DNA of 36,882 nucleotides from Streptomyces purpureus (lineage in GTDB: Bacteria; Actinomycetota; Actinomycetes; Streptomycetales; Streptomycetaceae), in assembly GCF_014648195.1 (NCBI RefSeq), contig NZ_BMQQ01000001.1:87902-124783 (forward strand). Reading direction: 5' to 3'. Below are positions 4,246 through 36,882 of the stretch, in pieces (position 1 is the stretch's first letter; each line of letters begins with the position of its first letter). A model generated the notes under the pieces. It had not been told where the DNA came from. It worked only from the letters and a program-made list of their open reading frames with translations, and did no database searches. The translations under genes and the position numbers were made by a program.

Positions 4246-4271
4246 GATGGAAAGTCCCCGGTGTGGCAAGT

Positions 4272-4298: not shown

Positions 4299-4360
4299 CT
4301 TGTCATGGGGGGCCGTAGTCGATCAAAGGGACTTCTCCCTCGGCCGGTTGGGCCGCTCGG

Positions 4361-5116: not shown

Positions 5117-5215
5117 GGCCTGATTCTGGGGTTCTCCGTTTGCGGGCCCCGCGTGCCGCGCCGAGACTGAAGCGATGCGTGCACACCCGATACCCCTCAG
5201 TAGCTGGGAGTGGAC

Positions 5216-5551
5216 ATGGCAAAACCGACGAACGACTTCGCTTGCGAGGCCGGAGCCCAGGACTTCATCGCCGTCGCGTACCGGGAGCCCAAGGCCGGGC
5301 GACGGGTCACCGTGAGGGGCACCTGTTCGTGCAACACCGAGGGGTTCACCCTCACTCTGGAGCTCGCCTCGCCGCCCATCGTCGCCACCCCCGAGGAGCT
5401 CCATCTGATGCTGGTGGAGACCGCGCCCACCGGCACCGTGGCGCAGGTCGTCACGCCCACCCCGGTGGAAGGCACGTTCCCGATCGCGGACGAGGTCGAG
5501 CGGGTCGTGATCCGTAACCGCGGGTTCAGCGTGCCCGTCAAGGAGGAGTGA
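5216..5551 (+). CDS. Small hypothetical protein, 111 aa
   Basis: I do not recognise this protein. It is a soluble polypeptide of about 12 kDa with no signal peptide or membrane segment. It has a Cys in FACEAG and a CSC pair in GTCSCNTEGFTL. The predicted character is beta-rich (alternating hydrophobic stretches such as FTLTLELA and HLMLVETAP), and it ends in acidic residues. ATG 5216 is preferred over GTG 5210 because GGGAG at 5206-5210 sits five bases before it and overlaps the GTG. It diverges from the deacetylase and converges on the protease at 5595, with a hairpin between, so it is probably monocistronic. Base composition and codon use look like its neighbours, supporting a real gene. 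Confidence 0.75.
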   Translation: MAKPTNDFACEAGAQDFIAVAYREPKAGRRVTVRGTCSCNTEGFTLTLELASPPIVATPEELHLMLVETAPTGTVAQVVTPTPVEGTFPIADEVERVVIRNRGFSVPVKEE

Positions 5552-5572
5552 CACCGGCCCCTCGGGCCGTGT
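5551..5572. terminator. Hairpin between convergent genes
   Basis: ACACCGGCCC (5551-5560) pairs with GGGCCGTGT (5564-5572) over a CTC loop, giving nine base pairs with one bulged C. It begins at the last base of the small gene's TGA and lies before the protease stop at 5595, so it can serve both directions. No T-tract follows, as is common in Streptomyces. Confidence 0.6.
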
Positions 5573-5594
5573 CAGACTCGGTCGATGCCCGCGG

Positions 5595-6650
5595 TCAGGC
5601 CCAGTTGATGCCCGCGCGCGCCAGCAGCGGGTCGTCGGTGAGCTGCCACAGGGGCACGGCGAAGTTGCCCGAGCGGTAGCGGCCGCCGTAGTGCAGGCCG
5701 AGGACCCGGTGGTCGGCGAGGTCGAAGACCGGGGAGCCGCTGTTGCCGCCGAGGGTGGAGCAGTCGTGCTTCATCGTCAGCTGACCGGGCAGCAGTTCCG
5801 TCGCCGTGCCGGGCTGGAGCCGTTTGACGTTGTAGACGTCCATGAAGATGCGGCGCATGGACTCCGGTTCGTTGCGGCGGCCGTCCCAGGCCGGGTAGCC
5901 GATCACGTAGACCGGCCGTCCCACCACCTCGCCGGGGGGCTCGGCGGCCACCGGCAGCGGGGTGGGCAGCGGGCCCGCCGAGGGGGTGACCCGCAGCAGG
6001 GCGAGGTCGACGTCCGCGTGGATGCCGAGCACCTCCGTGACGTCGTAGCTGAGCGCGCCGTCGCCGGTGACCGGGCCGCCGAGCTCCTCGGCCAGGTCGA
6101 CGCGGGCGGCCAGCCCCTGCCGGAAGGTCCAGCCCGCGCCGTCACTGCGGGTGAACTCGGTGGCGACATGGCGGTTGGTCATCACCACGTCCGGGCCGAC
6201 CAGGAACGCCGTCCCCAGCCAGTCCAGGTCGGGGTGGCCCGAGACCTCCACCCGGCCGACGCGGGCGATCGAGGCGCGGATCGCGGTCCGCGCGCCGTCC
6301 AGGACGGCCCAGTCGCCCTGCTGGGAGGGGAAGTCCTGGCCCTGGATCAGGATCGCCGGGCGCCCTTCGAGCAGCACGATCGCCTCGACGCCGAAGTACT
6401 CGTCCTCGTCGATGTCGGCGCCGCGTCCGGCGGCCATCTTCTCCAGGCCGCTGACCCCCGCCTCCAGGACCCGGGCCCGTTCCTCCTGGGCGAACCGGGC
6501 GATCTGGCCGGCCGGTGCCTCACCGCCCGGGCTCTCCACGGACGACTCGGAGATCTCCCACTCCAGGCCCTTGCGGACCCGTTCGGCGACCGCCAGCAGA
6601 TTCCCGAAGACCTGCTCGGGACCGGTCGCCACCGGTGAACCGTCGCGCAT
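5595..6650 (-). CDS. Intracellular trypsin-like (S1/V8-like) serine peptidase, 351 aa
   Basis: A chymotrypsin-fold protease with no signal peptide, so likely cytoplasmic. The triad is readable: His161 in TNRHVA, Asp215 in DVDLALL (or Asp213), Ser304 in GGNSGSPVF. The first 120 residues are not protease; they contain a helical, charged segment (QIARFAQEERARVLEAG) and a short beta segment (VEAIVLLEGRPAILIQG), plausibly an adaptor. It is the last gene of a three-gene operon: its ATG lies one base after the upstream protease's stop (TGAGATG), so translation is probably coupled. Context with a STAND NTPase and a second protease suggests a regulated effector rather than a digestive enzyme. The substrate is unknown; the fold call is firm and the role is inference. 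Confidence 0.85.
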   Translation of the reverse strand: MRDGSPVATGPEQVFGNLLAVAERVRKGLEWEISESSVESPGGEAPAGQIARFAQEERARVLEAGVSGLEKMAAGRGADIDEDEYFGVEAIVLLEGRPAILIQGQDFPSQQGDWAVLDGARTAIRASIARVGRVEVSGHPDLDWLGTAFLVGPDVVMTNRHVATEFTRSDGAGWTFRQGLAARVDLAEELGGPVTGDGALSYDVTEVLGIHADVDLALLRVTPSAGPLPTPLPVAAEPPGEVVGRPVYVIGYPAWDGRRNEPESMRRIFMDVYNVKRLQPGTATELLPGQLTMKHDCSTLGGNSGSPVFDLADHRVLGLHYGGRYRSGNFAVPLWQLTDDPLLARAGINWA

Positions 6651-6651
6651 C

Positions 6652-7833
6652 TCATGCCACCTCCGGTTGCTGGGCCCACGTGTCGGCGGGCCGTGTGGTC
6701 GAGGGGGACTGGGCCGCCGTGATCTCGGCGTGGATATCCGGGCGGTGATCCCGCAGGTGGGCGAGGACGCTGCTCATCTGGGTGCCGACGTTGACGAAGG
6801 CCGTGTTCTTGCCCTGGAAGCTGACGTCCTCCACCCGCCGGGTGCCGCGGTGCAGGGCGACAACGGTCCAGTCGTCGGTGAGAACGGGGGAGCCGGAGGA
6901 GCCGCCCCGGGTGTCGGTGAAGTAGCGCACGTCCCGCTCGTCGGCCTCGTAGACGAGGTTGTTGCGCAGGGCGACCCGTTTCGGCAGCCCGCCGGGGTGC
7001 TGGATGATGTTGACCGCGACCGGTTCGGCCGGGGTCACCCGCAGCGGCTCGCTCGCCACCCGCAGGACGGGCCGCTCGGGCGGGGTGCTCAGGCGCACGA
7101 TCGCGTAGTCGAGCTCCTCGTCGAAGGCGACCAGCTCGGCCCCGCCGGCCTCCTCGGTCTCCGTCTCGTCGGAGAGGTAGTCGAAGCGTGAACGCGAGCC
7201 GCGCACCTGGAGGTCCAGGTCGGACCGGGCGACCTCGACCCGGGGGACGGCGGCGGTGCGGGTACGGGCGTTGATCACATGGTGGTTGGTGATCAGCAGG
7301 CCGGGGGCGATCAGCCAGCCGGTGCCCGAGTGCGGGAAACCGTTCGGCTGGAGCGGGGCGCCGCCCTGGAACGGGGGCACCTTGATCCGGGCGACCGCGG
7401 TACCGGCCAGTTCGCCGCCGCGCAGGAACTCGAAGGGGACCGTGTCGTCCCGGAAGATGATCTCCTCCTTGGTCTCGCCGGCCGGCACGTCCGGTGCCAC
7501 GTCCGGCTCGCCGGCGGCGTTGCGGGTCACCTTGTCCAGGGCCCGCTGGAAGACCTCCAGCGGAGCGGTGATCCCGGCGCTCTGCACGACGGCGTTGCGC
7601 AGCCAGATCTCCAGCGGTACGGAACTGTCGACCAGCCGCTCGACCTTGTTCATCTCGTTGAGGTCCGAGTGCACCTGCGGCCCGGGCGCCGCGAGCAGCG
7701 GCAGCGTTCCGCGGTAGCGGGGGAGGATCCCCTCCAGCAGCAGCTTGCGCATCGACGGGTCCGCGAGACCCGCCTCCAGCGCGGCGTCCTTGATCTGGAC
7801 GATCTCGTCCGGCGGGAGATAAGGCTCGCTCAT
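6652..7833 (-). CDS. Trypsin-like serine peptidase with helical adaptor-like N-terminus, 393 aa
   Basis: Residues 1-105 form an all-helical, leucine-rich domain (QIKDAALEAGL, DPSMRKLLLEGILP, DLNEMNKVERL, PLEIWLRNAV). This resembles the effector-associated (EAD-type) adaptor domains that couple proteases, caspases and STAND NTPases in bacterial conflict systems; I cannot assign a subtype. Residues 165-350 are a V8/trypsin-fold peptidase with His185 (TNHHV), Asp242 (ELDYAIVRL) and Ser313 (GGSSGSPVL), all retained. No export signal is present. The ATG lies six bases downstream of the STAND gene stop, and the next protease starts one base after this gene ends, so the three are one transcription unit. 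The likely model is recruitment or activation by the upstream NTPase through the N-terminal domain. Confidence 0.85.
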   Translation of the reverse strand: MSEPYLPPDEIVQIKDAALEAGLADPSMRKLLLEGILPRYRGTLPLLAAPGPQVHSDLNEMNKVERLVDSSVPLEIWLRNAVVQSAGITAPLEVFQRALDKVTRNAAGEPDVAPDVPAGETKEEIIFRDDTVPFEFLRGGELAGTAVARIKVPPFQGGAPLQPNGFPHSGTGWLIAPGLLITNHHVINARTRTAAVPRVEVARSDLDLQVRGSRSRFDYLSDETETEEAGGAELVAFDEELDYAIVRLSTPPERPVLRVASEPLRVTPAEPVAVNIIQHPGGLPKRVALRNNLVYEADERDVRYFTDTRGGSSGSPVLTDDWTVVALHRGTRRVEDVSFQGKNTAFVNVGTQMSSVLAHLRDHRPDIHAEITAAQSPSTTRPADTWAQQPEVA

Positions 7834-7839
7834 GGTCGC

Positions 7840-10800
7840 TCAGGCCGCTTTCGGGCCGTTCCTTTCCGGTGCGGCCGCCGCCGGGGACGGCGGCGGGGCC
7901 ACCTTCGGTACGGCGCCGGACGTCCCGGCGCCCAGCGCGGCCGCCACCCCGGACAGCAGCTCCCCGCTCCTGTCCCGTACGACCAGCAGCCGGCGGGCCA
8001 GCCCGTCGAGGGTGCCGCGCCGCCGGGCCTCGCGCAGGATGCCCGTCATGCTGGTGTGGGTGGAGCCGGTGGCGGGTTCGCCGGGCGGCCGTTCCGGCTC
8101 GCCGACGGCGCCCTGGAGGATCCTCAGCAGGGCGGCGCGCAGCTGGGGCTGCTCGGCGGCCGCCCGTCCGATGGACTCGGCGAGTGCCTCCACGACGCCG
8201 TCGTCGGCCTGCGGCAGTCCCACGACCTCCAGGGTGCGGTCGAGCGCCGCCGGGTCCTGGTCGCACACCTCCGCGGCGACCGCCCGGACCAGTACGGGCT
8301 GTTCGGCCAGCGCGCTGTCGGGCAGCAGGCGCAGCCTGCGGGCGAGCCGGTCGTCGACCTCGGCGCGGTCCGGGTCCCCGGGCGTCCGCTCCGCCAGCCG
8401 GGCGCGGGCGAGCAGGGCGCCCATCGCCTCGAAGTCCCGGCCGAGGAGGGTGGCGATGTCCACGGCCTCCGCCAGATCACGGTCGGCGGCGCTCGCGTCA
8501 CCGGCCGCCTCGGCGAGCCGGGCGGACAACAGCAGCAGCTCCAGCTGGAGTTCGGCGCAGCCCGCCTTGTCGGCCCGGTCGACGGCCGCTTCGGCCGTCT
8601 CCAGGGCGAGCGTGGTGTGTCCCTGCCGGGCGAGGGTCTCGACCAGCAGCGGATGCAGTGGGCTGCCCGGGGTCCACGGCCGGCGCTCGGCCAGCCTGGC
8701 CGCGGCCGCCTCCGTGTACCCCTGGGCCAGCAGGTCCTCGACCTCGCGGGCGGCGATCCGCTCCCAGTCCTCCTGGTCGGCCTCGGCCATCACCTGTTCG
8801 GGGAGGTGCCCGCCGATCAGACCGGTGAGGAAGGCCGCGGACCGCGGGGACATGTCCTGGTCGGCGCCTTCGAGGTACCGCTCGATCCCGGTCGTCCAGC
8901 GCCGCTCCACCGAGCGGGGGTTCTCGTTGAGGCGCAGCCGGTGGTAGATCTCCTCGGCGCGTGCCTCGGGCCCTTCGCGGGCCGCGTAGTACACCACCGC
9001 CCGCCGCCCGACCGCGCGCATGACGTCCGTACGGGCGTTGTCCGCGAGGCGGAGCATGATCGCGCGCAGGTCGGAGCGGTGCCGTACGGCATCGGGGCCG
9101 GCCGGTTCGACCAGGTCGAGCCGGGACAGCACGCCGAAGAGCCGGCGGGCCCGCTCGGCCGAGTCGATCCGCAGGCCGCACGGCTCGGCGAGGACCTCCG
9201 TGATCAGCTCGGGGGTGATGACCCGCAGCGCCAGTCCGGCCTGGGCCAGTTCCCGCACCTCGGGGTCGGGGATGTGCTGGAGGATGCGTTCGTACAGGGC
9301 GCCCTGGACGAGCATCTGGTCGACCTTGCGGTAGAAGTAGCGGCGCCGCGCGGGCAGGCCTTCGACCAGTTCGCCGAGCGTGTCGGCCGCGCCGCCCGCC
9401 AGGACGGCGGCCCGGGCCGCCAGCTTCAGGCTCAGCGGATGGCCGCCGACCCGCTCGGCCAGCTCGTCGGCGATGTGCGGATCGCCGACGCCGTCGGCCG
9501 TCAGGAGCGCGACGGCCGCCTTGTGGTCGAGGTCGCCCAGCGCGATGGCCCGGGGGGTGGTGATCCGGGCCGGGTGGTCCACCGGGGCGCGGCCGGAGAC
9601 GATGAACCGCAGTCGTGGGTAGGCCTGCTGGAGCGCGGCCCAGATGGCCCACATCCGGCCGAGTACGGGCGAGCCGCGGTACTGCGCCTTCTCGAAGGAG
9701 TCGACGGCGATCACCAGCGGCGGGCCGGGCTGCCCGGCGGGGGTGCCCGCGGCCCGTACGACGACGTCGGCGACCTTCCGTACCAGCTCCGTGTCCCGGG
9801 CGCTCGCCCGGTCGTGGAAGCCGGATGAGGAGATCCGGCCCAGGGTGGGACGGGTGGTGGACAGCTCGTACAACTCGTCGACCTGGTCCTTCTCCTGCCG
9901 CTGGTGCCCGGCCGTCGCCTCGCACTCGTGGGCCAGCGCGTCCAGCTCCGCGCCGTGGGCGGGGTACTGGACCGCGAGCTGCCGGGCGATCTCGGCGATC
10001 AGCGTGGCCGGTTCCTGGATGGCGAGCGTGGGCCGTTCGAAGTCGGCGTACACGAAGGGGAACCCGGCGGGGAAGTCGCGCAGGCTGTCCAGGAGGAACT
10101 TGGCGATCAGGGTGCTCTTGCCGATGCCGCCGAGGCCGTGGACGACCAGGGGCGGTTCGGGGGCGCGGGTCATCACCCGCCGCAGCCCGTGCCCGGCCTG
10201 CCGGATACGGGCCTGCGGGGAGTCGGCCGGCAGACCGACGTAGGCGCGCAGCTGGTCCAGCTCCTCGGCGCGGCCCTGGAAGGGGCCCTGGACCAGGCGT
10301 TGCAGCGGCTGGAGGAGCCGGGCGCGCTCCAGCAGCCGCTGGACGTGCTCCGCGTCGGGCAGGCCGGTGACGCCGGGGATCTGCTCCAGCCACAGCACGG
10401 CCTGGAGGGTGTCGGCGAGGGCGTCGACGCCCTGCCCCTCCAGACGCGGTGGCTCGTCCGGACGCGGTGGCGCGCCGGAGAGATGGGCGAGGGCGGTGCG
10501 CTCGGGGCCCGGGCCCTCGGGGAACTGGTCGGCGTTGGCGGCGAGCGCGGCGAGGGCGGCCTCCGGCCCGGCAAGTCCGCGCAGCGTCGCCTCCCGTATA
10601 CCGGACTTGAGGGCCCAGCTGGTGGTGAGCGCGGCGAGGTCGGCCTCCGGCCCGGCAGTTCCGGGCGGCGCCGACTCCCCTGCGCCGGGCTCGGGGGCCC
10701 GGCCGGCGGGGTGCGCGCTGCCCAGCGCCCGGCAGTCGTGCACGAGCTCCATGGCGGCCCGGCCGGTGGCCCGCTCCTCGCCCGGAAGTCGCAGCCGGGC

Positions 10801-12054
10801 CGGGTCGAACCGCGAGAGCAGGCAGGCGGCTTCGCGGTAGCGCCGCCGGATGTCCGGCATCGGGGGCGGCCCGCCGCCGCCCTCGGCGGGCCGCAGCTCG
10901 GCCTGGAGCCGCGCGGCGAAGTCCTCGCCCTCGGTCAGGGAGCGGTAGACGCGGACGGTGCCTTCCACCGCCGTACAGACCCGGCGCATGTAGCTCTCGT
11001 CGCCGTCGGCCTCGGCGGCGCCCAGCACCGCGGACAGCGCCGTGTCCACGAGGGCCGCGACCCGGTCGGGCGGAGGGCCGGCGCTCTCACCGGGAGGCGG
11101 CTGGGCGGCGAAGAACTGGCCGAAGAACTCGGCCAGATCGTCCGCCCCGAGCGTCCGGGCGGTGTCCAGGCACTCGTTCTTCCGTATCTCGTAAGGGAGC
11201 TGACGTGTCGTCGGGGAGTAGCCGAGGAGGACGAGCCGGGGCACGGTCTCCCGGCGCACCGGCGCGTGCTCGTAGATGGCCAGGGCGAGCTTCCCGATGC
11301 AGTCCCAGACGTCGGAGGTGACGTCAAGCCTGTCGCAGTCGTCGAGCACCAGCCAGAACTGCTCGTCCGCCGCGGTCGCCAGCCGGACCACGCTGTGTAC
11401 GGCGTCGTCGAGCGTCGGCAGTGGATCGTTCAACTGTGTCGGATTCAAGGGCGTGATCGGGGTGCGCGGGTCGGCGACGAACTCGGTCAGCCGCCGGACC
11501 ACAGCGGCGGCCGTGGACGTCCGGGAGAGTGTGACCCGCACGGGGCGGAAGCCGCAGTGCTGCCCCAGGTGCCGGATCAGGTGGTACGTGTAGGAGCGGC
11601 CGCTGTCCGGTTCGCCGTCGACCACCAGCACGGTCTTCTCGGGGTCCGAGACGAACTCACGCAGCTTCCCGCGCAGCTCCGCCCGGTCGATGAAGACCTC
11701 GGTGCCGTTCTTCAGCACACTGCTCAGGAAGTGGTCCTGGGGCGAGGCGTGCTCGGCCTGGTCCTGCAGCAGCGCGGCCCGCAGTTGCTCCGCCGTGGTC
11801 CCGGCCTCCAGCGAGCTCAGCGCGTCGTTGTGGACCAGCCCGTCGAGGAGCAGCAGCTGGGCGGAGATGGTCCGGCGCGCCGCCCGCACCAGTGCGACCG
11901 CGTTCTCGCCTGCCCTCGTGGTCAGCGGGAGCGCGCCGATGAATTCCGGGGCGAATCCGAGCTGTTTGATCGGCGTGTACGGGTCGGGGGTGTCGAGGAG
12001 GAAGTCCCGCACCCAGCCGGTGACCATGTCCCATTCGGTATCGGTGAGCGGCAT
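7840..12054 (-). CDS. Giant STAND-family NTPase with two P-loop modules and helical repeat C-terminus, 1404 aa
   Basis: Probable signal-sensing switch of the protease operon. Residues 1-105 are helical (EWDMVTGWVRDFLL), possibly an adaptor. A first ATPase-like module has P-loop GEPDSGRS (147-154, Arg replacing the usual Lys) and Walker B FWLVLDDCD (233-241). A helical, alanine-rich linker (about 400-580) contains a near-repeat, AGPEADLAALTT and AGPEAALAALAA. A second canonical module follows: F-GR-EL entry motif near 590, P-loop GLGGIGKST (639-647), Walker B PLVIAVDSFE (778-787), and STAND-type GGHPLSLKLA (869-878). The last 400 residues are TPR-like helical repeats. No membrane segment or export signal is seen. 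ATG 12054 has only a weak upstream GCAGGTG. It is head of the operon with both proteases and divergent from the caspase gene. The STAND call is secure; the ligand is unknown. Confidence 0.85.
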   Translation of the reverse strand: MPLTDTEWDMVTGWVRDFLLDTPDPYTPIKQLGFAPEFIGALPLTTRAGENAVALVRAARRTISAQLLLLDGLVHNDALSSLEAGTTAEQLRAALLQDQAEHASPQDHFLSSVLKNGTEVFIDRAELRGKLREFVSDPEKTVLVVDGEPDSGRSYTYHLIRHLGQHCGFRPVRVTLSRTSTAAAVVRRLTEFVADPRTPITPLNPTQLNDPLPTLDDAVHSVVRLATAADEQFWLVLDDCDRLDVTSDVWDCIGKLALAIYEHAPVRRETVPRLVLLGYSPTTRQLPYEIRKNECLDTARTLGADDLAEFFGQFFAAQPPPGESAGPPPDRVAALVDTALSAVLGAAEADGDESYMRRVCTAVEGTVRVYRSLTEGEDFAARLQAELRPAEGGGGPPPMPDIRRRYREAACLLSRFDPARLRLPGEERATGRAAMELVHDCRALGSAHPAGRAPEPGAGESAPPGTAGPEADLAALTTSWALKSGIREATLRGLAGPEAALAALAANADQFPEGPGPERTALAHLSGAPPRPDEPPRLEGQGVDALADTLQAVLWLEQIPGVTGLPDAEHVQRLLERARLLQPLQRLVQGPFQGRAEELDQLRAYVGLPADSPQARIRQAGHGLRRVMTRAPEPPLVVHGLGGIGKSTLIAKFLLDSLRDFPAGFPFVYADFERPTLAIQEPATLIAEIARQLAVQYPAHGAELDALAHECEATAGHQRQEKDQVDELYELSTTRPTLGRISSSGFHDRASARDTELVRKVADVVVRAAGTPAGQPGPPLVIAVDSFEKAQYRGSPVLGRMWAIWAALQQAYPRLRFIVSGRAPVDHPARITTPRAIALGDLDHKAAVALLTADGVGDPHIADELAERVGGHPLSLKLAARAAVLAGGAADTLGELVEGLPARRRYFYRKVDQMLVQGALYERILQHIPDPEVRELAQAGLALRVITPELITEVLAEPCGLRIDSAERARRLFGVLSRLDLVEPAGPDAVRHRSDLRAIMLRLADNARTDVMRAVGRRAVVYYAAREGPEARAEEIYHRLRLNENPRSVERRWTTGIERYLEGADQDMSPRSAAFLTGLIGGHLPEQVMAEADQEDWERIAAREVEDLLAQGYTEAAAARLAERRPWTPGSPLHPLLVETLARQGHTTLALETAEAAVDRADKAGCAELQLELLLLSARLAEAAGDASAADRDLAEAVDIATLLGRDFEAMGALLARARLAERTPGDPDRAEVDDRLARRLRLLPDSALAEQPVLVRAVAAEVCDQDPAALDRTLEVVGLPQADDGVVEALAESIGRAAAEQPQLRAALLRILQGAVGEPERPPGEPATGSTHTSMTGILREARRRGTLDGLARRLLVVRDRSGELLSGVAAALGAGTSGAVPKVAPPPSPAAAAPERNGPKAA

Positions 12055-12101
12055 ACCGCACCTGCCCGGCCGCCCCTTGGGGGAGCCTGAGAGGGACTAC
12101 C

Positions 12102-12113
12102 TGACATCTGTCA
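12102..12113. promoter_or_regulatory. Inverted repeat in the divergent STAND/caspase promoter region
   Basis: TGACA (12102-12106) and TGTCA (12109-12113) flank TC, inside ACCTGACATCTGTCATGGT, where symmetry extends imperfectly further out. It is 48 bases upstream of the STAND start and about 190 bases upstream of the caspase start, in the 250-base gap between these divergent genes. A shared operator or overlapping promoter elements are plausible: CTGACA at 12101 could be a -35 box for the caspase gene, with a poor GGTATG -10 some 18 bases on. Confidence 0.3.
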
Positions 12114-12304
12114 TGGTTTCACTCGGTATGTGACGTCGCAAGGTCGGGAGCGTGCGGGGACCCGGGCGCGCGCGGGGCCGGGACCCGGGCGGGGAGCAGC
12201 GCAGGGGACAGGACCGATCGGGCGGCGCTGTCCGGCACCGGGTTCGGCGCGGCGGCGGTCACGGAACGGATTTCCGTGACACCCCCCTGCCGAAGGAGCG
12301 CCAC

Positions 12305-13159
12305 ATGCCCACCGGTCTCTCCCTGCACATCGGACTGAACAAGGTCGACCCCGCCCGCTACGACGGCTGGGACGGCCGGCTCCTCGCCTGCGAGAACGAC
12401 GCCCGCGACATGGCGGAGCTCGCCCGGCGCGCCGGATTCGGCGACACGACCCTGATGACTCCCGACGGCACCGTCGACAACGTCACCGCCGAACTCCGCA
12501 AGGCGGCCGCCAGGCTCACCGACGGGGACATCTTCCTCTTCACCTACTCGGGCCACGGCGGCCAGGTCCCCGACCGGACCGGCCCCGACGACGAGCCGGA
12601 CGACTTCGACGAGACCCTCGTCCTCTTCGACCGCCAGTTCCTCGACGACGAGCTCCACGAGGAGCTGCGCCGCTTCGACGAGGGCGTACGGATCCTCGCC
12701 CTGCTCGACTGCTGCCACAGCGGCAGCGCGGTGGAGAGCGTCCAGGGCGTCATCAGCCCGATGGCGATGGAGGCCCATTTCCAGACAAGCGACCCGCAGC
12801 AGCTGGAGGCGGCCTCCCGGCTGATGCCGGTCGTCCGCCAGCAGCAGATCTACGACCGCGACCAGGGCTTCTTCGACGAGCTCCAGCGCACCCTGAAGAA
12901 CCGCGACGGGCAGAAACCCGGCCCGGGCGTCGTCCTCATCTCGGCCTGCCAGGACAACCAGCTCGCCTCCGACGGGCCGGTCAACGGCGCCTTCACCGAG
13001 ACGCTGCTGCGGGTCTGGGACCGGGGAGCCTTCCGCGGCGGCCACCGCGCCTTCCACCGCACGATCCAGAGCCGGATGCCCGCCACCCAGAGCCCCAACT
13101 TCTACACCACCGGCGCGCCCGCGGCCGGCTTCCTGCGCCAGCGCCCCTTCACCGTGTGA
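12305..13159 (+). CDS. Caspase-like (C14 family) cysteine peptidase, 284 aa
   Basis: Bacterial metacaspase/orthocaspase-type protease, expected to cleave after basic or acidic residues depending on subtype. The caspase haemoglobinase fold is visible: GLNKVDP strand, LLACENDARDMAELA helix, DIFLFTYSGHGGQ with catalytic His84, and RILALLDCCHSGS with catalytic Cys137 next to Cys136. A later VVLISACQDNQ strand matches the conserved C-terminal core. No signal peptide or extra domain is present, so it is a stand-alone peptidase that would need activation in trans. ATG 12305 is preceded by GAAGGAG (12291-12297) at a good distance. It is divergent from the STAND-protease operon. Caspases are a standard effector class in STAND-linked conflict systems, which supports a joint role but does not prove it. 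The short gap to the membrane protein at 13215 leaves co-transcription possible. Confidence 0.88.
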   Translation: MPTGLSLHIGLNKVDPARYDGWDGRLLACENDARDMAELARRAGFGDTTLMTPDGTVDNVTAELRKAAARLTDGDIFLFTYSGHGGQVPDRTGPDDEPDDFDETLVLFDRQFLDDELHEELRRFDEGVRILALLDCCHSGSAVESVQGVISPMAMEAHFQTSDPQQLEAASRLMPVVRQQQIYDRDQGFFDELQRTLKNRDGQKPGPGVVLISACQDNQLASDGPVNGAFTETLLRVWDRGAFRGGHRAFHRTIQSRMPATQSPNFYTTGAPAAGFLRQRPFTV

Positions 13160-28498: not shown

Positions 28499-29857
28499 TT
28501 GAGCCACAGAGATATCGAGCTGCTTGCCATCGGCGCCGGCCCGGCCAACCTCGCCCTGGCCGTCGCGCTGGAGGAAATGGCTCCGGCGAGTCTGGCCCGC
28601 GACTCGCTCATCATCGAGCAGCAGGACGGCATCGTCTGGCAGCCGGGCATGCTGCTGCCCTGGAGCCAGAGCCAGGTGTCCTTCCTGAAGGACCTGGTCA
28701 CCCTCCGCAACCCGGTCAGCAAGTACTCGTTCATCAACTACCTGCACGACCAGAGCCGGCTGGACGACTTCATCAACCTCGGTACGTTCACCCCGTACCG
28801 CAGCGAGATATCCCAGTACCTGCGCTGGGTCGCGGAATCCCTCGAGAAGGTCCGCATCGAGTACGGCCGGCGGGCCGTGCGCGTCGAGCCGCTGCTCGAC
28901 GCCGACGGGACGCCCGGCAGCTGGCTGGTGCACCTCGCCGACGGCTCCACGATCGCCTGCCGCTACCTCGTCATCGGCGCCGGACGTGACGCGAACATCC
29001 CCGACGTCCTCAAGGACGTCGACCCGGGCCGCTACATCCACAGCACCGAGTTCCTCACCCGCACCGACGAGCTCGACGCGCTGGCGCCCAAGCGGGTGAT
29101 CGTCGTCGGCGGCGCGCAGAGCGCGGCCGAGATGCTGTGGACGGCGTACCAACGCTACCCCGAGGCCGAGTGCACCATGGTGATGCGCTCGATCGGTCTG
29201 TCCACCTACGACGGCAGCAAGTTCACCAACGAACTCTTCTACCCGTCCTTCATCGACGAGTTCCACGCCTCGCGGCCCGAGGCGCGGGCGCAGATGCTGT
29301 CCGAGATGCACCGGGCCAACTACGCCGGTCTCGCGCCGTCGCTGCTGGACTCCATGTACCGCCAGATGTACCTGGAGAAGCTGGACGGCACCCAGCGGCT
29401 GCACATGGTCACCCTCTCCGACATCACGGCCGCCCGCTCCGACGAGGACGAGGTCGTGCTCACCCTGTCGGACCGGCGCGACGGATCCGTCAGGGAACTC
29501 GCTGGCGACGTGGTCCTGCTCGGCACCGGATTCGTCCGGGACATGCCGGCGATGGTGCGCGGCTTCGGCGCGGCCCTCGGCCTGGACTCCCTCACCGTGG
29601 ACCGCAACTACCTGCTGCAGACCGGTGCTTCCGGCCCCACCTCGGCGCTGTGCTACCTGCAGGGCGTCAACGAGGCCACCCACGGCATCGCCGACTCGCT
29701 GCTCAGCGTGCTGGCTGCCCGCTCGGGCGAGATCACCACCGACATCCTCCGCCGCCGCGCGGGCGTACGCCCCACCTCGGCGACCCCTTCCCACACCTCC
29801 GCGGACGCGGACGAGAACACCGAAGAGGAGGCTCCGGCATGGAGCTACGCGGGCTAG
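28499..29857 (+). CDS. L-lysine/L-ornithine N-monooxygenase-type flavoenzyme, 452 aa
   Basis: FAD- and NADPH-dependent N-hydroxylase of the SidA/IucD/PvdA family, hydroxylating the side-chain amine of lysine or ornithine. FAD motif GAGPANLALA (12-21), the family-typical WQPGMLLPWSQSQVSFLKDL, NADPH-binding VIVVGGAQSAAEML, and the late GTGFVRDMP are present; the length is normal. The start is TTG 28499, preceded by GAGGAG; the nearby ATG 28494 hits a stop at once. A disordered tail (about 425-452) overlaps the next gene by 19 bases. Without siderophore synthetase genes next to it, and followed at once by a cupin and a MetRS-like enzyme, it corresponds to the lysine-N6-hydroxylases of hydrazine pathways (Spb38, Tri26, PyrM). 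Lysine is inferred from that context, not read from residues. Confidence 0.9.
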   Translation: MSHRDIELLAIGAGPANLALAVALEEMAPASLARDSLIIEQQDGIVWQPGMLLPWSQSQVSFLKDLVTLRNPVSKYSFINYLHDQSRLDDFINLGTFTPYRSEISQYLRWVAESLEKVRIEYGRRAVRVEPLLDADGTPGSWLVHLADGSTIACRYLVIGAGRDANIPDVLKDVDPGRYIHSTEFLTRTDELDALAPKRVIVVGGAQSAAEMLWTAYQRYPEAECTMVMRSIGLSTYDGSKFTNELFYPSFIDEFHASRPEARAQMLSEMHRANYAGLAPSLLDSMYRQMYLEKLDGTQRLHMVTLSDITAARSDEDEVVLTLSDRRDGSVRELAGDVVLLGTGFVRDMPAMVRGFGAALGLDSLTVDRNYLLQTGASGPTSALCYLQGVNEATHGIADSLLSVLAARSGEITTDILRRRAGVRPTSATPSHTSADADENTEEEAPAWSYAG

Positions 29858-30207
29858 ACCGTCAGAACCTGAAGCACGAGAACGGCCTGGACGCCCAGCG
29901 TCTGGTGCCCTGGCCGGCGCTCAACGCCCCCTTCGAGGGCTCCTGGTGTGTGATCCGCCCCGGCACCGCCTCGACGCCGCACGCCCACCACGAGTACGAG
30001 ATATTCATCGCGGTCAAGGGCGAGGCGTTCCTGGAGTCCCAGGGCGAGCGCACCCCGTTCGTCACCGGCGACATCGTGCACTTCCCGCCCGGCATCGAGC
30101 ACCGCGTGGTCAACGAGTCCGGTGAGGACTTCGAGATGTACAGCGTCTGGTGGGACCTGGAGATGACCGAGAAGTTCGCCGCCCGCCACGGGGAGAGAGC
30201 GTCATGA
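29839..30207 (+). CDS. Single-domain cupin, probable N-N bond-forming component, 122 aa
   Basis: A small metal-dependent beta-barrel. Metal ligands read as His48, His50 and Glu54 (TPHAHHEYEIF) and His88 (FPPGIEHRVVN), matching both cupin motifs. In known hydrazine synthetases a cupin domain rearranges the ester of N6-hydroxylysine and a second amino acid to form the N-N bond, and it is fused to a MetRS-like domain. Here it is a separate protein whose stop overlaps the MetRS-like start (ATGA), so equal, coupled synthesis is expected. ATG 29839 lies inside the monooxygenase 3' end. No signal peptide is present. A generic cupin isomerase or dioxygenase is the alternative, but the neighbours favour the hydrazine role. 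Confidence 0.8.
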   Translation: MELRGLDRQNLKHENGLDAQRLVPWPALNAPFEGSWCVIRPGTASTPHAHHEYEIFIAVKGEAFLESQGERTPFVTGDIVHFPPGIEHRVVNESGEDFEMYSVWWDLEMTEKFAARHGERAS

Positions 30208-31832
30208 CCGACGGCAGCCAGCGCCGTACCGTCATCATCGCCCCGCCTCCGACGCCCAACGGCGACCTGCACACCGGACACCTCGCCGGCCCCTTCCTCG
30301 CCGGCGACGTCTACGCCCGCTACCTGCGCGCCTCCGGCCGCCCGGTCATCTACACCAGCGGCACCGACGACAGCCAGACCTATGTCGTGGCGAGCGCCCG
30401 GCGCGCCGGTACGACCCCCGAGGCGCTGGCCGCCACATCCTGGGAGCAGATCCGCACCACCCTGGACGCGGCCGGGATCTCCGTCGACGGGTTCGCCCCC
30501 TTCGACAAGGGCTACCGCCAGACCGTCCTGGACTTCGTCACGGACCTGCACACCGCCGGCGCCTTCAAGCTCAAGACGGTCCGGCTGCCCTACGTGGAGG
30601 CCACCGGCGAGTTCCTGATGGAAGGCCTCGTCGCCGGCGACTGCCCGGTCTGCCTGCTGGAGAGCCGCGGCGGACTGTGCGAGTCCTGCGGCCACCCGAA
30701 CAACTTCGACGAGCTGCTGCGGCCGCGCTCCACCACCGACCCGGACGCCCAGGTCACCCACCGCGAGGTGGAGATCCTGGTGCTGCCCATGGAGGAGTAC
30801 CGCGTCCAGCTCGCCAACTACTACGCCAAGCACCGCCACATGCTGCGCCCGCACACCGCGCAACTGGTCCGCGAGGCGCTCGCCCGGCCGCTGCCGGACT
30901 TCCCCCTCACCTACCCGACCCCGTGGGGCATCGAGGCGCCGTTCCCCGAGACCCCCGGCCAGACCCTCAACGCCTGGGCCGAGGGCATGGCCGCCTCGAT
31001 GTACTGCACCTGGTGGGCCGCCGAGCAACTGGGCGACCACACCGACCGGTACGACGAGCACTGGCTCTCCGAACACGGCATCGATCTCGTCTACTTCCTC
31101 GGCTTCGACAACGTCTACTTCTGGGGAATGACGCACCTCGCCCTGCTGATGGCGCACGGGGACCGCTACATCGAGCCGCACGCCATCGTCTCGAACGAGT
31201 TCTACGAGCTGGAGAACGAGAAGTTCTCCACCAGTAAAGGCCATGTCGTCTGGGCCCGGGACCTCGTCGCCGAAGTCCCGCGCGACCTGGCCAAGTTCTA
31301 CCTCGCGCTCACCGCGCCGGAGCACTCCCGCACCAACTTCAGCCGCGCTGCCCTCGACGGCCTGGTCACCTCCCGGCTCGTGGACCCGTGGAACCGGCTC
31401 TCGGCCCGGCTGGACACGCTGCTCGCCGGCGTCTCCCGCGACGAGCCGCTGCCGGTCTCCCCGACCGGCGCCAAGGAAGCCGGCACCGTCGTCGAGCGGT
31501 TCCGCTCGCACTACGAGCTGCAGAGCTTCAGCCTGCACCGGGCGGCCGACCTGATCGTCGTCCACGTCGACCGGCTGCTGCAGCAGGCCGACCGTACGGA
31601 CGCCGGATCCCAGGTGGCGCTGGGCGACTTCACGCTCGCCGTACGGACACTGCTCGCGTGCGCCGCGCCGATCCTCGCCGACGTCGCGGCCCGGGCCGCC
31701 GAAGCCGGTGTGGATCTGGCGATCCCGGCCCGCTGCACCACCACGACATCGGTCCCGGCGCTGCACCTGCCGACCCTGTCCACCACCGTCGGGGCCGACG
31801 CCCCGGCCGCCCTGGCCGACGCCAGGGTCTGA
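30204..31832 (+). CDS. Methionyl-tRNA-synthetase-like enzyme, probable hydrazine synthetase adenylating/ester-forming part, 542 aa
   Basis: A class I aminoacyl-tRNA synthetase paralogue. The HIGH motif reads HTGH (23-26, in PNGDLHTGHLAG), GTDD (53-56) matches the MetRS GTDE element, the zinc knuckle has Cys147, Cys150, Cys159 and Cys162, and the KMSKS loop is KFSTS (340-344) followed by Lys. The C-terminal 170 residues are divergent from the usual anticodon-binding helices. In Spb40, Tri28 and PyrN the MetRS-like part activates an amino acid with ATP and esterifies it to N6-hydroxylysine; the adjacent cupin and monooxygenase point to the same role here. ATG 30204 overlaps the cupin stop. A resistant housekeeping-type MetRS is possible in principle, but the drifted KMSKS and the neighbours argue against it. 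Confidence 0.85.
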   Translation: MTDGSQRRTVIIAPPPTPNGDLHTGHLAGPFLAGDVYARYLRASGRPVIYTSGTDDSQTYVVASARRAGTTPEALAATSWEQIRTTLDAAGISVDGFAPFDKGYRQTVLDFVTDLHTAGAFKLKTVRLPYVEATGEFLMEGLVAGDCPVCLLESRGGLCESCGHPNNFDELLRPRSTTDPDAQVTHREVEILVLPMEEYRVQLANYYAKHRHMLRPHTAQLVREALARPLPDFPLTYPTPWGIEAPFPETPGQTLNAWAEGMAASMYCTWWAAEQLGDHTDRYDEHWLSEHGIDLVYFLGFDNVYFWGMTHLALLMAHGDRYIEPHAIVSNEFYELENEKFSTSKGHVVWARDLVAEVPRDLAKFYLALTAPEHSRTNFSRAALDGLVTSRLVDPWNRLSARLDTLLAGVSRDEPLPVSPTGAKEAGTVVERFRSHYELQSFSLHRAADLIVVHVDRLLQQADRTDAGSQVALGDFTLAVRTLLACAAPILADVAARAAEAGVDLAIPARCTTTTSVPALHLPTLSTTVGADAPAALADARV

Positions 31833-31874: not shown

Positions 31875-31964
31875 CGTCCCGGCCGGCCCGCCCGGCGCCC
31901 GGGCCCCCGCCCTGGTGCGCCCGCACCACCGTCCCCCCACCTGATGACCCATCCGAGGAGAAAC

Positions 31965-33242
31965 GTGTCCAGCACCAAGGCTTTGGGCGAGAATCCCACC
32001 GCGCCGCGCGCCAATCGCGCCGAGAGGCTGCTCATCCCGGCGACCTTCATCACCAACCTGGGCAACGGCATCCAGCTGACCGCCGCCGCCTACCTGGTCT
32101 TCACCGAGGCGAGCACGATGCTCGCGGTCAGCTGGCTGATGATCGCCGTGACCATCCCGCAGGTGGCGCTCTCCCTCTGGTTCGGCAAGATCGCCGACCG
32201 CTTCGACCGCCGGACGCTGGCGCTCATCTCCGACCTGATCAGCGCCGCCGCCGCGGTGGCCCTGCCGCTGTGGCTGTACCTCGACGGTGAGCCGACCACC
32301 GTCTCGTACGTGGCGAGCTTCGTCCTCGCCCTGTCCGCCGCGCTGTTCTTCCCGGCGAGCAACGCCCTGATCAAGGAGCGGATCCCGGAGTCCCGGCTCG
32401 CGCAGTTCAACGGCAACGCCGAGATCGCGATCCAGGCCGGTACGCTCGCCTCGGCCGCCATCGGTGGCTGGGTCATCGCCTGGGTCGGCGTCAACTCGCT
32501 GTTCTACTTCAACGCCGTCACCTTCCTGATCTCCGCCGCGATGCTGTTCGCCCTCGGCCGCCGCCCGGCCGCCGCCCCGCAGACCGCCGAGGAGAAGGCC
32601 GCCTCCGCCGCCTCCGCCGCCGCCGCGAAGAAGGCCGGCGTCCGCCCGCCGCTGGCCCGTCTCGGCCTGCTCTACGCCATCGGCAACATCGTCATCATCG
32701 TCGGCAACAGCATCCTGCTGGTCCTGGTCATCGACGGCTTCAACAGCAGCGTCGGCATCCTCGGTGTGGTCGACGCCCTGTTCGGTATCGGCGCCCTGTT
32801 CGCGGCCGCCGCCTTCAAGAAGTTCTCGGCCCGCTCCACCGTCACCAAGGCCGCGCTCATCGGCTACCTCGCCTTCGCCGTGATCCTGGTCCTGGAGACC
32901 ACCCACCTGTGGATCATGATGGCCGTCATCCCGCTGGCCGGTCTCACCTTCGGCATGGCCCGCATCTCGGCCCGTACGGCCCTGATGACCGCCTCGCCCG
33001 AAGAGCGCACCGGCTTCGTCTTCGGTGCCACCAACGCCTTCGGTCTGGCCGCCGGTACCACCGCGACCGTGCTGATCTCCCTGCTCGTCGACGCGACCGA
33101 CGTGCGCTACGGCTTCTACGTCCTCGCCGGCCTGGTCGCCGTCATCGCCGTGGTCACCGTCACCTCGCTCACCCGCACCGAGGCCCGTATCCGCAAGGCG
33201 GAGGCGGCCGGTTCCCCGGCCGTCGCCGAGACCACGGCCTGA
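31965..33242 (+). CDS. MFS-family efflux transporter, 425 aa
   Basis: A twelve-helix major facilitator protein, probably exporting the cluster's product and giving self-protection. The N-terminal half has LLIPATFITNLGNGIQLTAAAYLV and the cytoplasmic A-like loop FGKIADRFDRRTLALISD (the DRxxRR element); a long Ala/Lys-rich cytosolic linker (RRPAAAPQTAEEKAASAAS) splits the halves; the second half ends TVTSLTRTEARIRKAEA. The family resembles drug and macrolide-type exporters. GTG 31965 is chosen for GAGGAG (31955-31960) just before it; the in-frame ATG 31944 would overlap the ribosome site. It lies 16 bases before the ATP-grasp gene, same strand. The substrate is not readable. Confidence 0.85.
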   Translation: MSSTKALGENPTAPRANRAERLLIPATFITNLGNGIQLTAAAYLVFTEASTMLAVSWLMIAVTIPQVALSLWFGKIADRFDRRTLALISDLISAAAAVALPLWLYLDGEPTTVSYVASFVLALSAALFFPASNALIKERIPESRLAQFNGNAEIAIQAGTLASAAIGGWVIAWVGVNSLFYFNAVTFLISAAMLFALGRRPAAAPQTAEEKAASAASAAAAKKAGVRPPLARLGLLYAIGNIVIIVGNSILLVLVIDGFNSSVGILGVVDALFGIGALFAAAAFKKFSARSTVTKAALIGYLAFAVILVLETTHLWIMMAVIPLAGLTFGMARISARTALMTASPEERTGFVFGATNAFGLAAGTTATVLISLLVDATDVRYGFYVLAGLVAVIAVVTVTSLTRTEARIRKAEAAGSPAVAETTA

Positions 33243-33258: not shown

Positions 33259-34512
33259 ATGAAGCTGCTCGCCCTGGAAGCCCGCCAGAACGCCACCTAC
33301 TACGTCTCCCGCTACCAGCAGCTCGAGGCGCTCGGCGCGACGGTCCACGTCCTCAACGGCGTCGGCACCGACGACTTCTGGCCCGCCGACCGCTACCGTG
33401 TCGCCGGCTCGCAGCACATCGACGACCTGATCGCGGCGGCCCGCACCTGGCACGCCGAGACCGGCTTCGACGGCGTGCTCACCTTCTCCGAGTCCGGAGT
33501 CGTCGCGGTGGCCGCGGTCGCCGAGGCGCTCGGACTGCCCGGCGTCGGCCTGGAGGCCGCCCGCACCAGCCGCAACAAGCTCCTCATGCGCGAGGCCCAC
33601 AGGAGCGGCGGCGCACCCCACCCCGACTTCCGCTACGTGCCGGACGTCGAGGCCGCGCTCGCCGCCGGGGAGGACTTCGGCTACCCGCTGATCCTGAAGC
33701 CGACCCTGGGCGCCGCGTCCAACTTCGTCTTCAAGATCGACGACGCCGAGGAGCTGCGGACCCGGTTCGCCGACGCCGCCAAGGGCATCGAATCGATGTC
33801 GTGGGCCCTGATGGAGGCCGACGGCCTCGAACTGGGCCCGCACGGACTGCTCGTGGAGTCCTACCTCGACGGGCACGAGCACCTCATCGAGGCGCTCGCC
33901 TGGGACGACGAGGTCTACCTCGGCTCCGTCGTCGACCGGGTCACGGTCGAGGGCGGCACCTTCGACGACGACGTCCACCACGCCCCGAGCGCCCTGACCG
34001 AGGAGCAGCTCGCCGAGGTCCAGCGGGTCGTCAAGGCCGCCGCCCACGCCCAGGGCCTGCGCCGGGCCGTCCTGCACGCCGAGGTCCGCTTCCACCAGGG
34101 CCGGCCGTACATCCTGGAGATCGCGATCCGCCCCGGCGGCGGAGGCCTCGACCACATGGCCCGCATCAGCGCCGGACACGACCCGATCCGGTGCGTGGTG
34201 GACGTCGCCTCCGGAGTCCGCCCCGACGTCGGGCACTACGCCCCGACCGAGGTCCACACCGCGGCCATGTGCCTGATCAGCCAGGCCGGCAAGGTCGAGT
34301 CGGTGCACGTCCCCGAGGACGTCGCCGCCTCGCCCGACATCTTCTTCCTCAAGATCACCGCACATCCGGGGGACGTCATCAAGCGTCCCCCGCACGGCAA
34401 CAACATCCTGGGCTTCCTCGGTACCACCGGGACCTCCCTGGACGACGCACTCGGCAGCGCGACCCGCCTCGCCGACCGCATACACACAGAGATGAGCGAC
34501 ATCCATGTCTGA
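33259..34512 (+). CDS. ATP-grasp amino acid ligase, 417 aa
   Basis: An ATP-dependent carboxylate-amine ligase that would join two amino acids or acylate an amine through an acyl-phosphate. The N-terminal pre-ATP-grasp region (FDGVLTFSESGVVAVAAVAEAL, GLEAARTSRNKLLMRE) and the central fold with YPLILKPTLGAASNFV, LLVESYLDGHE and the metal site RPYILEIAIRPGGG are typical of BacD-like L-amino acid ligases. AAGGAGG at 33245-33251 precedes ATG 33259. It overlaps the DDAH-like gene by eight bases, so the two are coupled. As a stand-alone peptide former it may attach the hydrazine amino acid to a partner, since no NRPS is present in the window. The substrates are inference. Confidence 0.85.
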   Translation: MKLLALEARQNATYYVSRYQQLEALGATVHVLNGVGTDDFWPADRYRVAGSQHIDDLIAAARTWHAETGFDGVLTFSESGVVAVAAVAEALGLPGVGLEAARTSRNKLLMREAHRSGGAPHPDFRYVPDVEAALAAGEDFGYPLILKPTLGAASNFVFKIDDAEELRTRFADAAKGIESMSWALMEADGLELGPHGLLVESYLDGHEHLIEALAWDDEVYLGSVVDRVTVEGGTFDDDVHHAPSALTEEQLAEVQRVVKAAAHAQGLRRAVLHAEVRFHQGRPYILEIAIRPGGGGLDHMARISAGHDPIRCVVDVASGVRPDVGHYAPTEVHTAAMCLISQAGKVESVHVPEDVAASPDIFFLKITAHPGDVIKRPPHGNNILGFLGTTGTSLDDALGSATRLADRIHTEMSDIHV

Positions 34513-35326
34513 GACCACCCGGCGTCAGGCCACCCCGCGCCACTTTCTGATGTGCCGTCCGACCCACTTCGAGGTCAGCTACTCCATCAACCCCTGGATG
34601 GACCCCACCAAGCCGATGGACCACCAGCTGGCCATCGCCCAGTGGGAGCGCATCCGCGACCTGTACGTCGACTTCGGTCACCAGGTCTCGTTCATCGACC
34701 CGGTCGAGGGCCTGCCCGACATGGTCTTCTCCGCCAACGGCGCCACCGTGATCGACGGCAAGGTGCTGCTGGCCAAGTTCCGCCACCAGGAGCGCGCCGC
34801 CGAGGCCGACGCCTACCAGAAGTGGTTCACCGCGGCCGGCTACGAGCACGTCCTCGCGCCGGAGTACGTCAACGAGGGCGAGGGCGACTTCCTCGCCGCC
34901 GGTGAGCGCATCTTGGCCGGCACCGGCTTCCGCAGCGACCCGGGCGCCCACGAGGAGCTGGCCGCGTTCTTCGGCCGCCCGGTCGTCGGGCTGACCCTGG
35001 TCGACCCCCGCTTCTACCACCTGGACACCGCGCTCAGCGTCCTCACCGACGACCTCGTCATGTACAACCCCGCCGCGTTCTCCGAGGAGAGCCGGCAGAC
35101 CCTGAGCGAGCTGTACCCCGAAGCGATCCTGGCCACCCAGGCCGACGCCGACGTGTTCGGCCTCAACGCCATCAGCGACGGCCTGCACGTCGTCCTGCCG
35201 GAGGCCGCCACCCACCTGATCGGCGAACTGCGCGACCGCGGCTTCGAGCCGCACGGCGTGGACATGTCCGAACTGCTGAAGGCCGGTGGTGCCGTGAAGT
35301 GCTGCACTCTGGAGATACGCCGATGA
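34505..35326 (+). CDS. Dimethylarginine dimethylaminohydrolase-like (amidinohydrolase fold) enzyme, 273 aa
   Basis: A penta-fold guanidine-modifying enzyme that hydrolyses a guanidino group through a Cys thioester. CRPTHFEVSY start, LPDMVFSANGA, the acidic EGEGDFL (124-130), His172 in FYHLDTALSVL and the C-terminal GGAVKCCTLEIRR with nucleophile Cys266 (or 267) are all intact, at normal length. Close relatives occur in actinobacteria beside rocD in arginine catabolism, so this looks like a paralogue recruited to the cluster. It suggests an arginine-like or amidine substrate in the pathway, or supply of ornithine/citrulline. ATG 34505 overlaps the ATP-grasp gene, and its TGA overlaps the next ATG (ATGA). 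The physiological substrate is not known. Confidence 0.85.
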   Translation: MSETTRRQATPRHFLMCRPTHFEVSYSINPWMDPTKPMDHQLAIAQWERIRDLYVDFGHQVSFIDPVEGLPDMVFSANGATVIDGKVLLAKFRHQERAAEADAYQKWFTAAGYEHVLAPEYVNEGEGDFLAAGERILAGTGFRSDPGAHEELAAFFGRPVVGLTLVDPRFYHLDTALSVLTDDLVMYNPAAFSEESRQTLSELYPEAILATQADADVFGLNAISDGLHVVLPEAATHLIGELRDRGFEPHGVDMSELLKAGGAVKCCTLEIRR

Positions 35327-35655
35327 CGATCGACTACGACGGCCGGCGGTTCCGCAACACCGCCTACGGCGACGACGCCCCCGTCGCCCGCTACCGCCAG
35401 GAAGGCTCCCTGCTGTGGGCCGACTTCGCCGGCGGAGACGTCAAGAAGGGCGCCCTGACCGGGCACGCGGCCGACGACGGCACGCTGGAGTTCACGTACA
35501 CCATGGTCCTTGCCGACGGTGAGGTGATCGCCGGCCGCTGCTGGAGCACCCCCGAGGTCCTGCCCGACGGGCGGATCCGGCTCAGCGAGCGCTGGGAGCG
35601 GTACGGCGAGCGCGCCGACAGCGGCATCTCGGAGCTGGAGGAGGTCCCGGCATGA
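35323..35655 (+). CDS. Small lipocalin-like protein of unknown function (often mis-named N-acetylglutamate synthase), 110 aa
   Basis: A short beta-rich protein: DYDGRRFRNTAYGDDAPVAR, LLWADFAGGDVKKGALTG, TMVLADGEVIAGRCWSTPE, and IRLSERWERYGERADSGISE. This pattern matches a small bacterial family that databases sometimes label N-acetylglutamate synthase without evidence; it has no GNAT or kinase motif. A single compact beta-barrel that binds a small ligand is plausible from the alternation. ATG 35323 overlaps the DDAH-like stop and its own stop overlaps the next start (ATGA both times), so it is tightly coupled and probably needed by the pathway. No catalytic residues can be named. Confidence 0.78.
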   Translation: MTIDYDGRRFRNTAYGDDAPVARYRQEGSLLWADFAGGDVKKGALTGHAADDGTLEFTYTMVLADGEVIAGRCWSTPEVLPDGRIRLSERWERYGERADSGISELEEVPA

Positions 35656-36882
35656 CCAGCACCGAGACCCCGCGCCGCGGCGGCACGGTCACCTGGGCGT
35701 GCACCAACGGCTTCAGCCCGGTCTTCATCTTCCCTTTCACGCCCGGCGACTACTACGGCATCGCCAATCTGCACGAGTTCCAGACGCTGATGTACCGGCC
35801 GCTGTACTGGTACGGCAGCGGCGGCTCCCCGACCGTCGACTACGAGCGCAGCCTCGCGCTGCCCCCGGAGTGGGACGAGGACGGCCGCACGGCGACGATC
35901 ACCCTCAAGCCGTACCGCTGGTCCAACGGTGAGATGGTCAACGCCGACAACGTGATGCTGTGGATGCATCTGCTGGAGGCGGAGAAGAGCAGGTTCGGCG
36001 GCTACTCGCCCGGCTTCTTCCCGGACAACCTGGTCCGCTACGAGAAGGTCGCGGAAGACAAGGTGAGCTTCACCTTCGACCGCGCCTACTCGCACAACTG
36101 GGTGCTGATGAACCAGTTCTCCACCATCACCCCGCTGCCCAGGGCCTGGGACCGCACCGCCGACGACGCCCCCGCCGACGCCACCCACGACCCGTCCCAG
36201 GCCTCCGCCGTCTACGCCTACCTGCGGGCCTGCAACGACGAGCGCAAGACCTGGGACAGCAGCCCCGTCTGGGGTGTCGTCAACGGCCCCTGGAAGCTGC
36301 ACACGTACACCATCGACGGCACCTCGGGCGAGGCCGTGCTCGTGCCCAACGAGCACTACTCCGGAGCGGACAAGCCCCACCTCGACGCCTTCCGGCTGGT
36401 GCCGACCGCCTCGGACGACGACCAGTACGAGAAGCTGCGGCAGGGCCCGGACTCGCCCGAGGGCGTCCAGATCGGCTTCCTGCCGTTCGACGAGGTCACC
36501 GAGCCGGCCGAGGACCCGATGACCGGCGGCCCGAACCCGCTGGGCGAGCGGTACCGTCTCGTGCCCCAACTCACGTACAAGATCCACTACTTCCCGATCA
36601 ACTTCAACAACCCCACGGTCGCCGGGAAGATCTTCAAGCAGCTCTACTTCCGCCAGGCCCTGCAGTCCTGCCTCGACTCGGACGGCGCGATCCGCGACGT
36701 CTACAAGGGCTACGGCTACCCGACGACCGGCCCGGTGCCGGCCCTGCCCGAAAGCCCGCTGCTCTCGCCGGCCCGCCGCAAGGACCCCTACCCCTTCGAC
36801 GTCGAGCGGGCCCGCGCCCTGCTCACCGAGAACGGCTGGGACACCAGCACCACCCCGGCGCGGTGCGTACGCCCGGGCACCG
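35652..36882 (+). CDS. Family 5 oligopeptide solute-binding-protein homologue lacking a signal peptide (3' end outside window)
   Basis: At least 410 residues are present, with the frame open at the window end. The sequence begins PRRGGTVTWACTNGFSPVF, the usual first strand of a mature DppA/OppA-type protein, and continues with HEFQTLMYRPLYWYG, ITLKPYRWSNGEMVNADNVM, NGPWKLHTYTIDG and FRQALQSCLDSDGAIRDVYK, all characteristic of the family. There is no hydrophobic leader, lipobox or Tat motif; ATG 35652 overlaps the previous stop (ATGA), and no longer in-frame leader fits. Either it acts in the cytoplasm, binding a peptide-like pathway intermediate, or it is an enzyme built on this fold. An ABC importer partner would have to lie to the right of the window. 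Confidence 0.85.
   Translation, partial: MTSTETPRRGGTVTWACTNGFSPVFIFPFTPGDYYGIANLHEFQTLMYRPLYWYGSGGSPTVDYERSLALPPEWDEDGRTATITLKPYRWSNGEMVNADNVMLWMHLLEAEKSRFGGYSPGFFPDNLVRYEKVAEDKVSFTFDRAYSHNWVLMNQFSTITPLPRAWDRTADDAPADATHDPSQASAVYAYLRACNDERKTWDSSPVWGVVNGPWKLHTYTIDGTSGEAVLVPNEHYSGADKPHLDAFRLVPTASDDDQYEKLRQGPDSPEGVQIGFLPFDEVTEPAEDPMTGGPNPLGERYRLVPQLTYKIHYFPINFNNPTVAGKIFKQLYFRQALQSCLDSDGAIRDVYKGYGYPTTGPVPALPESPLLSPARRKDPYPFDVERARALLTENGWDTSTTPARCVRPGT

Follow-up and report, generated by a model that had tools for sequence, protein, structure and literature searches.

The question raised by this locus is whether a Streptomyces purpureus operon encodes a hydrazine synthetase in the form of two separate proteins and, if so, how it stands among the systems already published. 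Three plus-strand genes lie at the centre of the question. The first (28499-29857 of the window, by which we mean the whole 36,882-nucleotide stretch analysed, whose contig is part of a 7.54 Mb genome) encodes a lysine/ornithine-type flavin N-hydroxylase (NMO; PF13434, E 8.2e-87) and starts at a TTG preceded by GAGGAG. It adjoins a stand-alone zinc-type cupin (29839-30207; PF07883, E 4.8e-16), the predicted N-N bond former, and this in turn a stand-alone MetRS-like ligase without an anticodon domain (30204-31832; PF09334, E 6.7e-64), the predicted maker of an O-aminoacyl hydroxylamine ester. The cupin ATG at 29839, with AGGAGG upstream of it, lies inside the hydroxylase gene, giving a 19-nt overlap, and an ATGA at 30204-30207 serves as both cupin stop and MetRS-like start; the two genes overlap in different frames and the fused state was not found here. 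All of this agrees with a preliminary description of the DNA, which had read the genes as those of a hydrazine synthetase. That function is predicted from sequence, and we consider it very probable that the three genes form the core of a hydrazine-making operon in which the synthetase is split into a MetRS-like ligase and a cupin.

The operon extends beyond these three genes, as adjoining genes on the same strand reach 35655 and run beyond the window end. They encode an MFS exporter (31944-33242; PF07690, E 2.8e-35), which is 74-75% identical in the related loci L036 and L034; a first ATP-grasp L-amino acid ligase (33259-34512; PF13535 and PF18603); a dimethylargininase-like hydrolase (34505-35326), whose predicted activity follows from a score above the curated NCBIfam cut-off (NF045659, 443 bits against 300), with H172 and C266 present in 31 of 31 rows; a small protein of 118 codons, u118 (35299-35655); and a family-5 peptide-binding protein (35652-36882; PF00496, E 2.5e-31), whose gene starts here and continues past the window. 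Directly at the window end this last gene is interrupted by an assembly gap of 34 Ns (L004:2285-2318), and the peptide-binding protein of a relative, at 85% identity, aligned on both sides of the gap. Downstream of the window, L004 carries genes for a YbaK-like protein (2883-3386), a second ATP-grasp enzyme (about 3386-4714) and an FAD oxidase (4707-5780) that ends the operon, with a BTAD-domain regulator farther downstream. The oxidase thereby lies on the far side of the gap, although collinearity with the relatives supports the join.

Elsewhere in the window, at 5598-13156, the minus strand encodes two trypsin-like proteases, one bearing the effector-associated domain EAD5, as well as an AAA-type ATPase-domain protein of 1404 aa, and the plus strand encodes a protein with a caspase domain; this block may serve in bacterial conflict or cell death. 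RHS-repeat and DUF6531 matches were found on the minus strand at 1303-3999.

The residues on which the predicted chemistry would depend were compared across relatives. Among solved structures the hydroxylase came closest to an L-ornithine 5-monooxygenase (3s5w, E 3.2e-75), followed by MbtG, an L-lysine N6-monooxygenase (E 1.9e-64); with an ornithine enzyme as the best match, lysine is only a candidate substrate. K64, N244 and N274 were present in 78, 79 and 76 of 79 rows, respectively. Residues 1-118 of the 122-residue cupin matched the solved cupin 4rd7 (E 4.3e-48), and the fact that the match begins at residue 1 supports the choice of ATG. The metal ligands H48, H50, E54 and H88 were invariant (74/74 rows), and their pattern, H-x-H-x3-E followed by a third His, has the spacing of PyrN His50, His52, Glu56 and His90, the residues mutated in PMC8664883. 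The preliminary description had allowed that the cupin might group with unrelated isomerases; this was not found, and the protein gave a weak match to the cupin RHS1 (5uqp, E 1.4e-5).

For the MetRS-like protein, H23, G25 and H26 of the HTGH motif, the four cysteines C147, C150, C159 and C162, and K340 and S342 of KFSTS were invariant in all 81 rows. Metal ligands, HTGH and zinc cysteines had all been pointed out beforehand and held up, whereas GTDD, listed with them, does not mark the family: residue 55 differs by clade, and 49 of the 81 rows have D there, 19 have Q and 13 have H. This variation may reflect which amino acid is used, and residues of the amino-acid pocket also differ among relatives. 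The concern that the best match might prove to be a housekeeping methionine--tRNA ligase was dispelled. The protein is 79-82% identical to its nearest database relatives, a domain scan at E<=1 detected no anticodon family in it, and the best NCBIfam MetRS model gave 215 bits against a cut-off of 587; the genome's own MetRS is a separate protein, 23-25% identical, that does carry an anticodon domain (PF19303). By these comparisons the MetRS-like protein is distinct from the housekeeping enzyme.

The split state itself is not new. The preliminary description had taken the known pathways to use one fusion protein, but separate genes have been in print since 2010 (PMC2922099), were reported active in 2021 (PMC8664883) and occur in the albofungin cluster too, and novelty on this ground was rejected; the window is a further member of a published two-protein form. 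Among the cases in PMC2922099 (Aravind et al., 2010), MetRS paralogs without a fusion always had a neighbouring stand-alone cupin gene, a lysine hydroxylase accompanied them, and several operons added ATP-grasp enzymes, a citrulline-generating dimethylargininase and peptide-binding proteins. These are the kinds of gene seen in the window operon, which differs in its avidin-like protein, a component not named in that paper's account of the operons. The product proposed in the same account was a Met-Lys peptide, with no hydrazine.

According to the results given in PMC8664883, the cupin and MetRS-like enzyme work as separate proteins and yielded hydrazine in engineered Rhodococcus and in the gene pairs tested. 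Rhodococcus jostii RHA1 there has the same three-gene set and split architecture as the window, and its cupin, RHS1, is homologous. The RHS1 residues are Asp63, His65, Glu69 and His103, whereas the window cupin has the PyrN-like His-x-His-x3-Glu; and the RHS1 cluster was mined for its saccharopine dehydrogenase, while the window operon has an FAD oxidase, ATP-grasp ligases and a dimethylargininase-like gene. The didomain synthetases Spb40, Tri28, PyrN and AzsN, with which the window was compared by description rather than by sequence, would be expected to have the same two activities and likewise stand beside an N-hydroxylase, but are fused where the window has two genes. An FAD oxidase also lies beside the spb, tri and azs synthetases. 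In the albofungin cluster, as described in PMC9469721, orfDEF encode a cupin, a tRNA synthetase and an FAD oxidoreductase, and abf6 a lysine monooxygenase; the review PMC11705231 gives afn8, afn9 and afn18 as separate genes. The cupin and MetRS-like genes are thus apart there as in the window, although that is a polyketide cluster and the window operon carries ATP-grasp ligases instead.

Each reaction of the proposed pathway is assigned by homology to published relatives. The flavin enzyme would hydroxylate lysine (or ornithine) on its side-chain amine, after which the MetRS-like protein would use ATP to activate a second amino acid, which it would then esterify onto the N-OH. The zinc cupin would rearrange this labile ester to form the N-N bond, and the FAD oxidase would then release a hydrazino acid by cleaving one C-N bond. 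Coupling of this acid into a small peptide would fall to the ATP-grasp ligases, with the MFS protein as the predicted exporter. The hydrazine reading is supported by the family matches, the conservation of residues, the PyrN-like spacing of the cupin ligands, the kept gene order and the activity of the published pairs.

The same genes could be read otherwise. As proposed in 2010, the MetRS-like protein might be an amide ligase giving a peptide or hydroxamate, with the cupin carrying out an unrelated modification. This is improbable. In its favour are the prediction of PMC2922099, made before the chemistry was known, and the conversion of the ester to an N-acyl hydroxylamine when the cupin is not working; against it, the separate pairs in PMC8664883 made hydrazine, and the cupin ligands are intact in every row. 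Still less credible is a siderophore-type operon in which the hydroxylase would supply a hydroxamate, with the cupin and MetRS-like protein as accessories, for while the hydroxylase family includes siderophore enzymes and the operon has an MFS exporter as well as a peptide-binding protein, no siderophore synthetase family appeared among the operon genes scanned and the hydroxylase is kept directly before the cupin in 62 of 80 relatives (best 80 of 91).

The hydrazine synthetase reading leaves the question of where the two-gene form came from. A MetRS-like match at E<=1e-40 was present in 94 of 392 genomes of the genus, with three such matches in G269 and two in G199. The sample contained 121 rows, made up of 80 loci (best 80 of 91), 40 distant loci chosen by hand and the window, of which 83 were split, 16 fused and 22 unclear, the last comprising 13 with a cupin elsewhere in the stretch examined and nine showing none. 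In the same best 80 of 91, the cupin stands directly before the MetRS-like gene in 65, with a 4-nt overlap in 47 of these. The fused rows required three changes on the MetRS-like tree, and the window fell inside an 81-row clade (SH-aLRT 100, starred) with one row scored fused. The Frankia locus L077 was scored fused on an open frame that spans 152 aa between cupin and MetRS and may be chance. The window lies so deep in a split clade that a recently broken fusion is unlikely. Thus, of the two origins put forward in the preliminary description, 'split from the fusion' finds little favour, and 'ancestral' is compatible, though the root is weak; as the trees were of the 'quick' type with SH-aLRT support only and the outgroup branch was very long (3.4 changes per column), we make no claim on the ancestral state.

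Two other arrangements were seen among the relatives. In L092, L095, L097 and L101-L104 the hydroxylase and MetRS-like genes occur without a nearby cupin, and a search to E 10 detected none in the surrounding DNA. Loss of the cupin was rejected as an explanation, as all seven of these genomes, and that of L105, contain one (E 9.8e-43 to 4.9e-41 in the eight); there it lies elsewhere in the genome, directly beside the avidin-like gene. In L069, L076 and L110 the cupin, MetRS-like and O-type oxidase (see below) genes are consecutive, and some 4 kb (approximate) from them lies a distant hydroxylase (27-29%), giving a gene set that resembles the one reported for albofungin.

The protein u118 is predicted to form an eight-stranded avidin-like barrel. 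Across the 392 genomes, 23 of 25 strong u118 matches had a MetRS-like gene no more than 20 kb away, and a match was found within this distance at 21 of 47 split loci as against none of 15 fused loci. We found no description in the literature of an avidin-like gene near split synthetases, and the association seems to be new.

A second feature of the operon concerns its two ends. The FAD oxidases fall into two subfamilies, D and O, assigned by a bit-score rule; among the 80 loci (best 80 of 91) there were 51 O, 8 D and 21 of neither type, and the window is D. On the oxidase tree, from which one O locus was omitted as too short, D and O each formed one clade (97 and 99, both starred). The MetRS tree joined the window to L034, L035, L036 and L059 (99, starred) and then to Hamadaea L037 (99-100, starred). 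These four, the nearest of the relatives compared, have a MetRS 80-82% identical to that of the window, but their operons open with a divergent hydroxylase and close with the O oxidase, whereas the window and Hamadaea have D. On the hydroxylase tree (75 of the 80 loci plus the window, five being omitted for short or weak matches) the D/O distribution needs one change, rows of neither type being uncounted. On the eight other gene trees it needs two for u118, three for MRS, SBP and MFS, four for AG1, AG2 and DDAH, and five for the cupin, the cupin and u118 alignments being short and the MFS tree including three D rows. Hamadaea was nearest to the window on the cupin tree, without starred support. 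AU tests rejected two groupings, both of them named after the trees were seen: a hydroxylase clade of the window with L034, L035, L036 and L059 (p 6.4e-6), and a MetRS clade of the nine D rows (p 1.8e-5).

Pairwise identities gave a similar picture. Between the window and L036 the hydroxylase is 59% identical and nine other genes 71-85%. Between L036 and L038 the values are 76% for the hydroxylase, 72% for the oxidase, 76% for the cupin, 63% for MetRS and 54% for the second ATP-grasp enzyme; in the comparisons with L038, L041 and L042 the hydroxylase stands at 76% and the oxidase at 72-74%, with MetRS, AG1, DDAH, u118, YbaK and AG2 at 51-66%. The cupin, at 76-80%, does not separate the groups. 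The spacing of the hydroxylase-cupin junction agrees with an exchange of the hydroxylase, being a 19-nt overlap in the window and Hamadaea but a gap of 54 nt in L034-L036 and of 33-55 nt in L038-L042. An O-type oxidase was not seen in the window's genome, in a search without a positive control, nor a D-type in G269, G227, G199 and G039 (G000 as control). A class-wide search of 394 genomes gave five further ones at E<=1e-120, among which a second switch may occur.

It looks as if the hydroxylase and oxidase were exchanged as a pair in the one event found, a proposal made because both replaced genes point to the same donor-like group; such an exchange seems to be new. That they were replaced in two unrelated events, with no functional pairing, is only a little less than an even chance. 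There is a single informative switch, D-grouping oxidases also occur with very different hydroxylases (L149 and L150, 27-28%), and just one alignment column, L213 versus F or Y, tells the two hydroxylase sets apart; against this, the replaced genes lie at opposite ends of the operon and yet both lead to L038, L041 and L042.

A more speculative suggestion, which we hold to be rather unlikely, is that the avidin-like protein is a third part that would carry the labile ester or hydrazine between ligase and cupin in place of a fusion, and that hydroxylase and oxidase would be a matched cassette setting the diamine and the C-N bond that is cut. Should the avidin-like protein prove to be a true partner of split synthetases, it would be a component absent from the published reconstitutions consulted here. 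If the hydroxylase and oxidase do travel together while the synthetase stays, they would be natural handles for altering hydrazine products.
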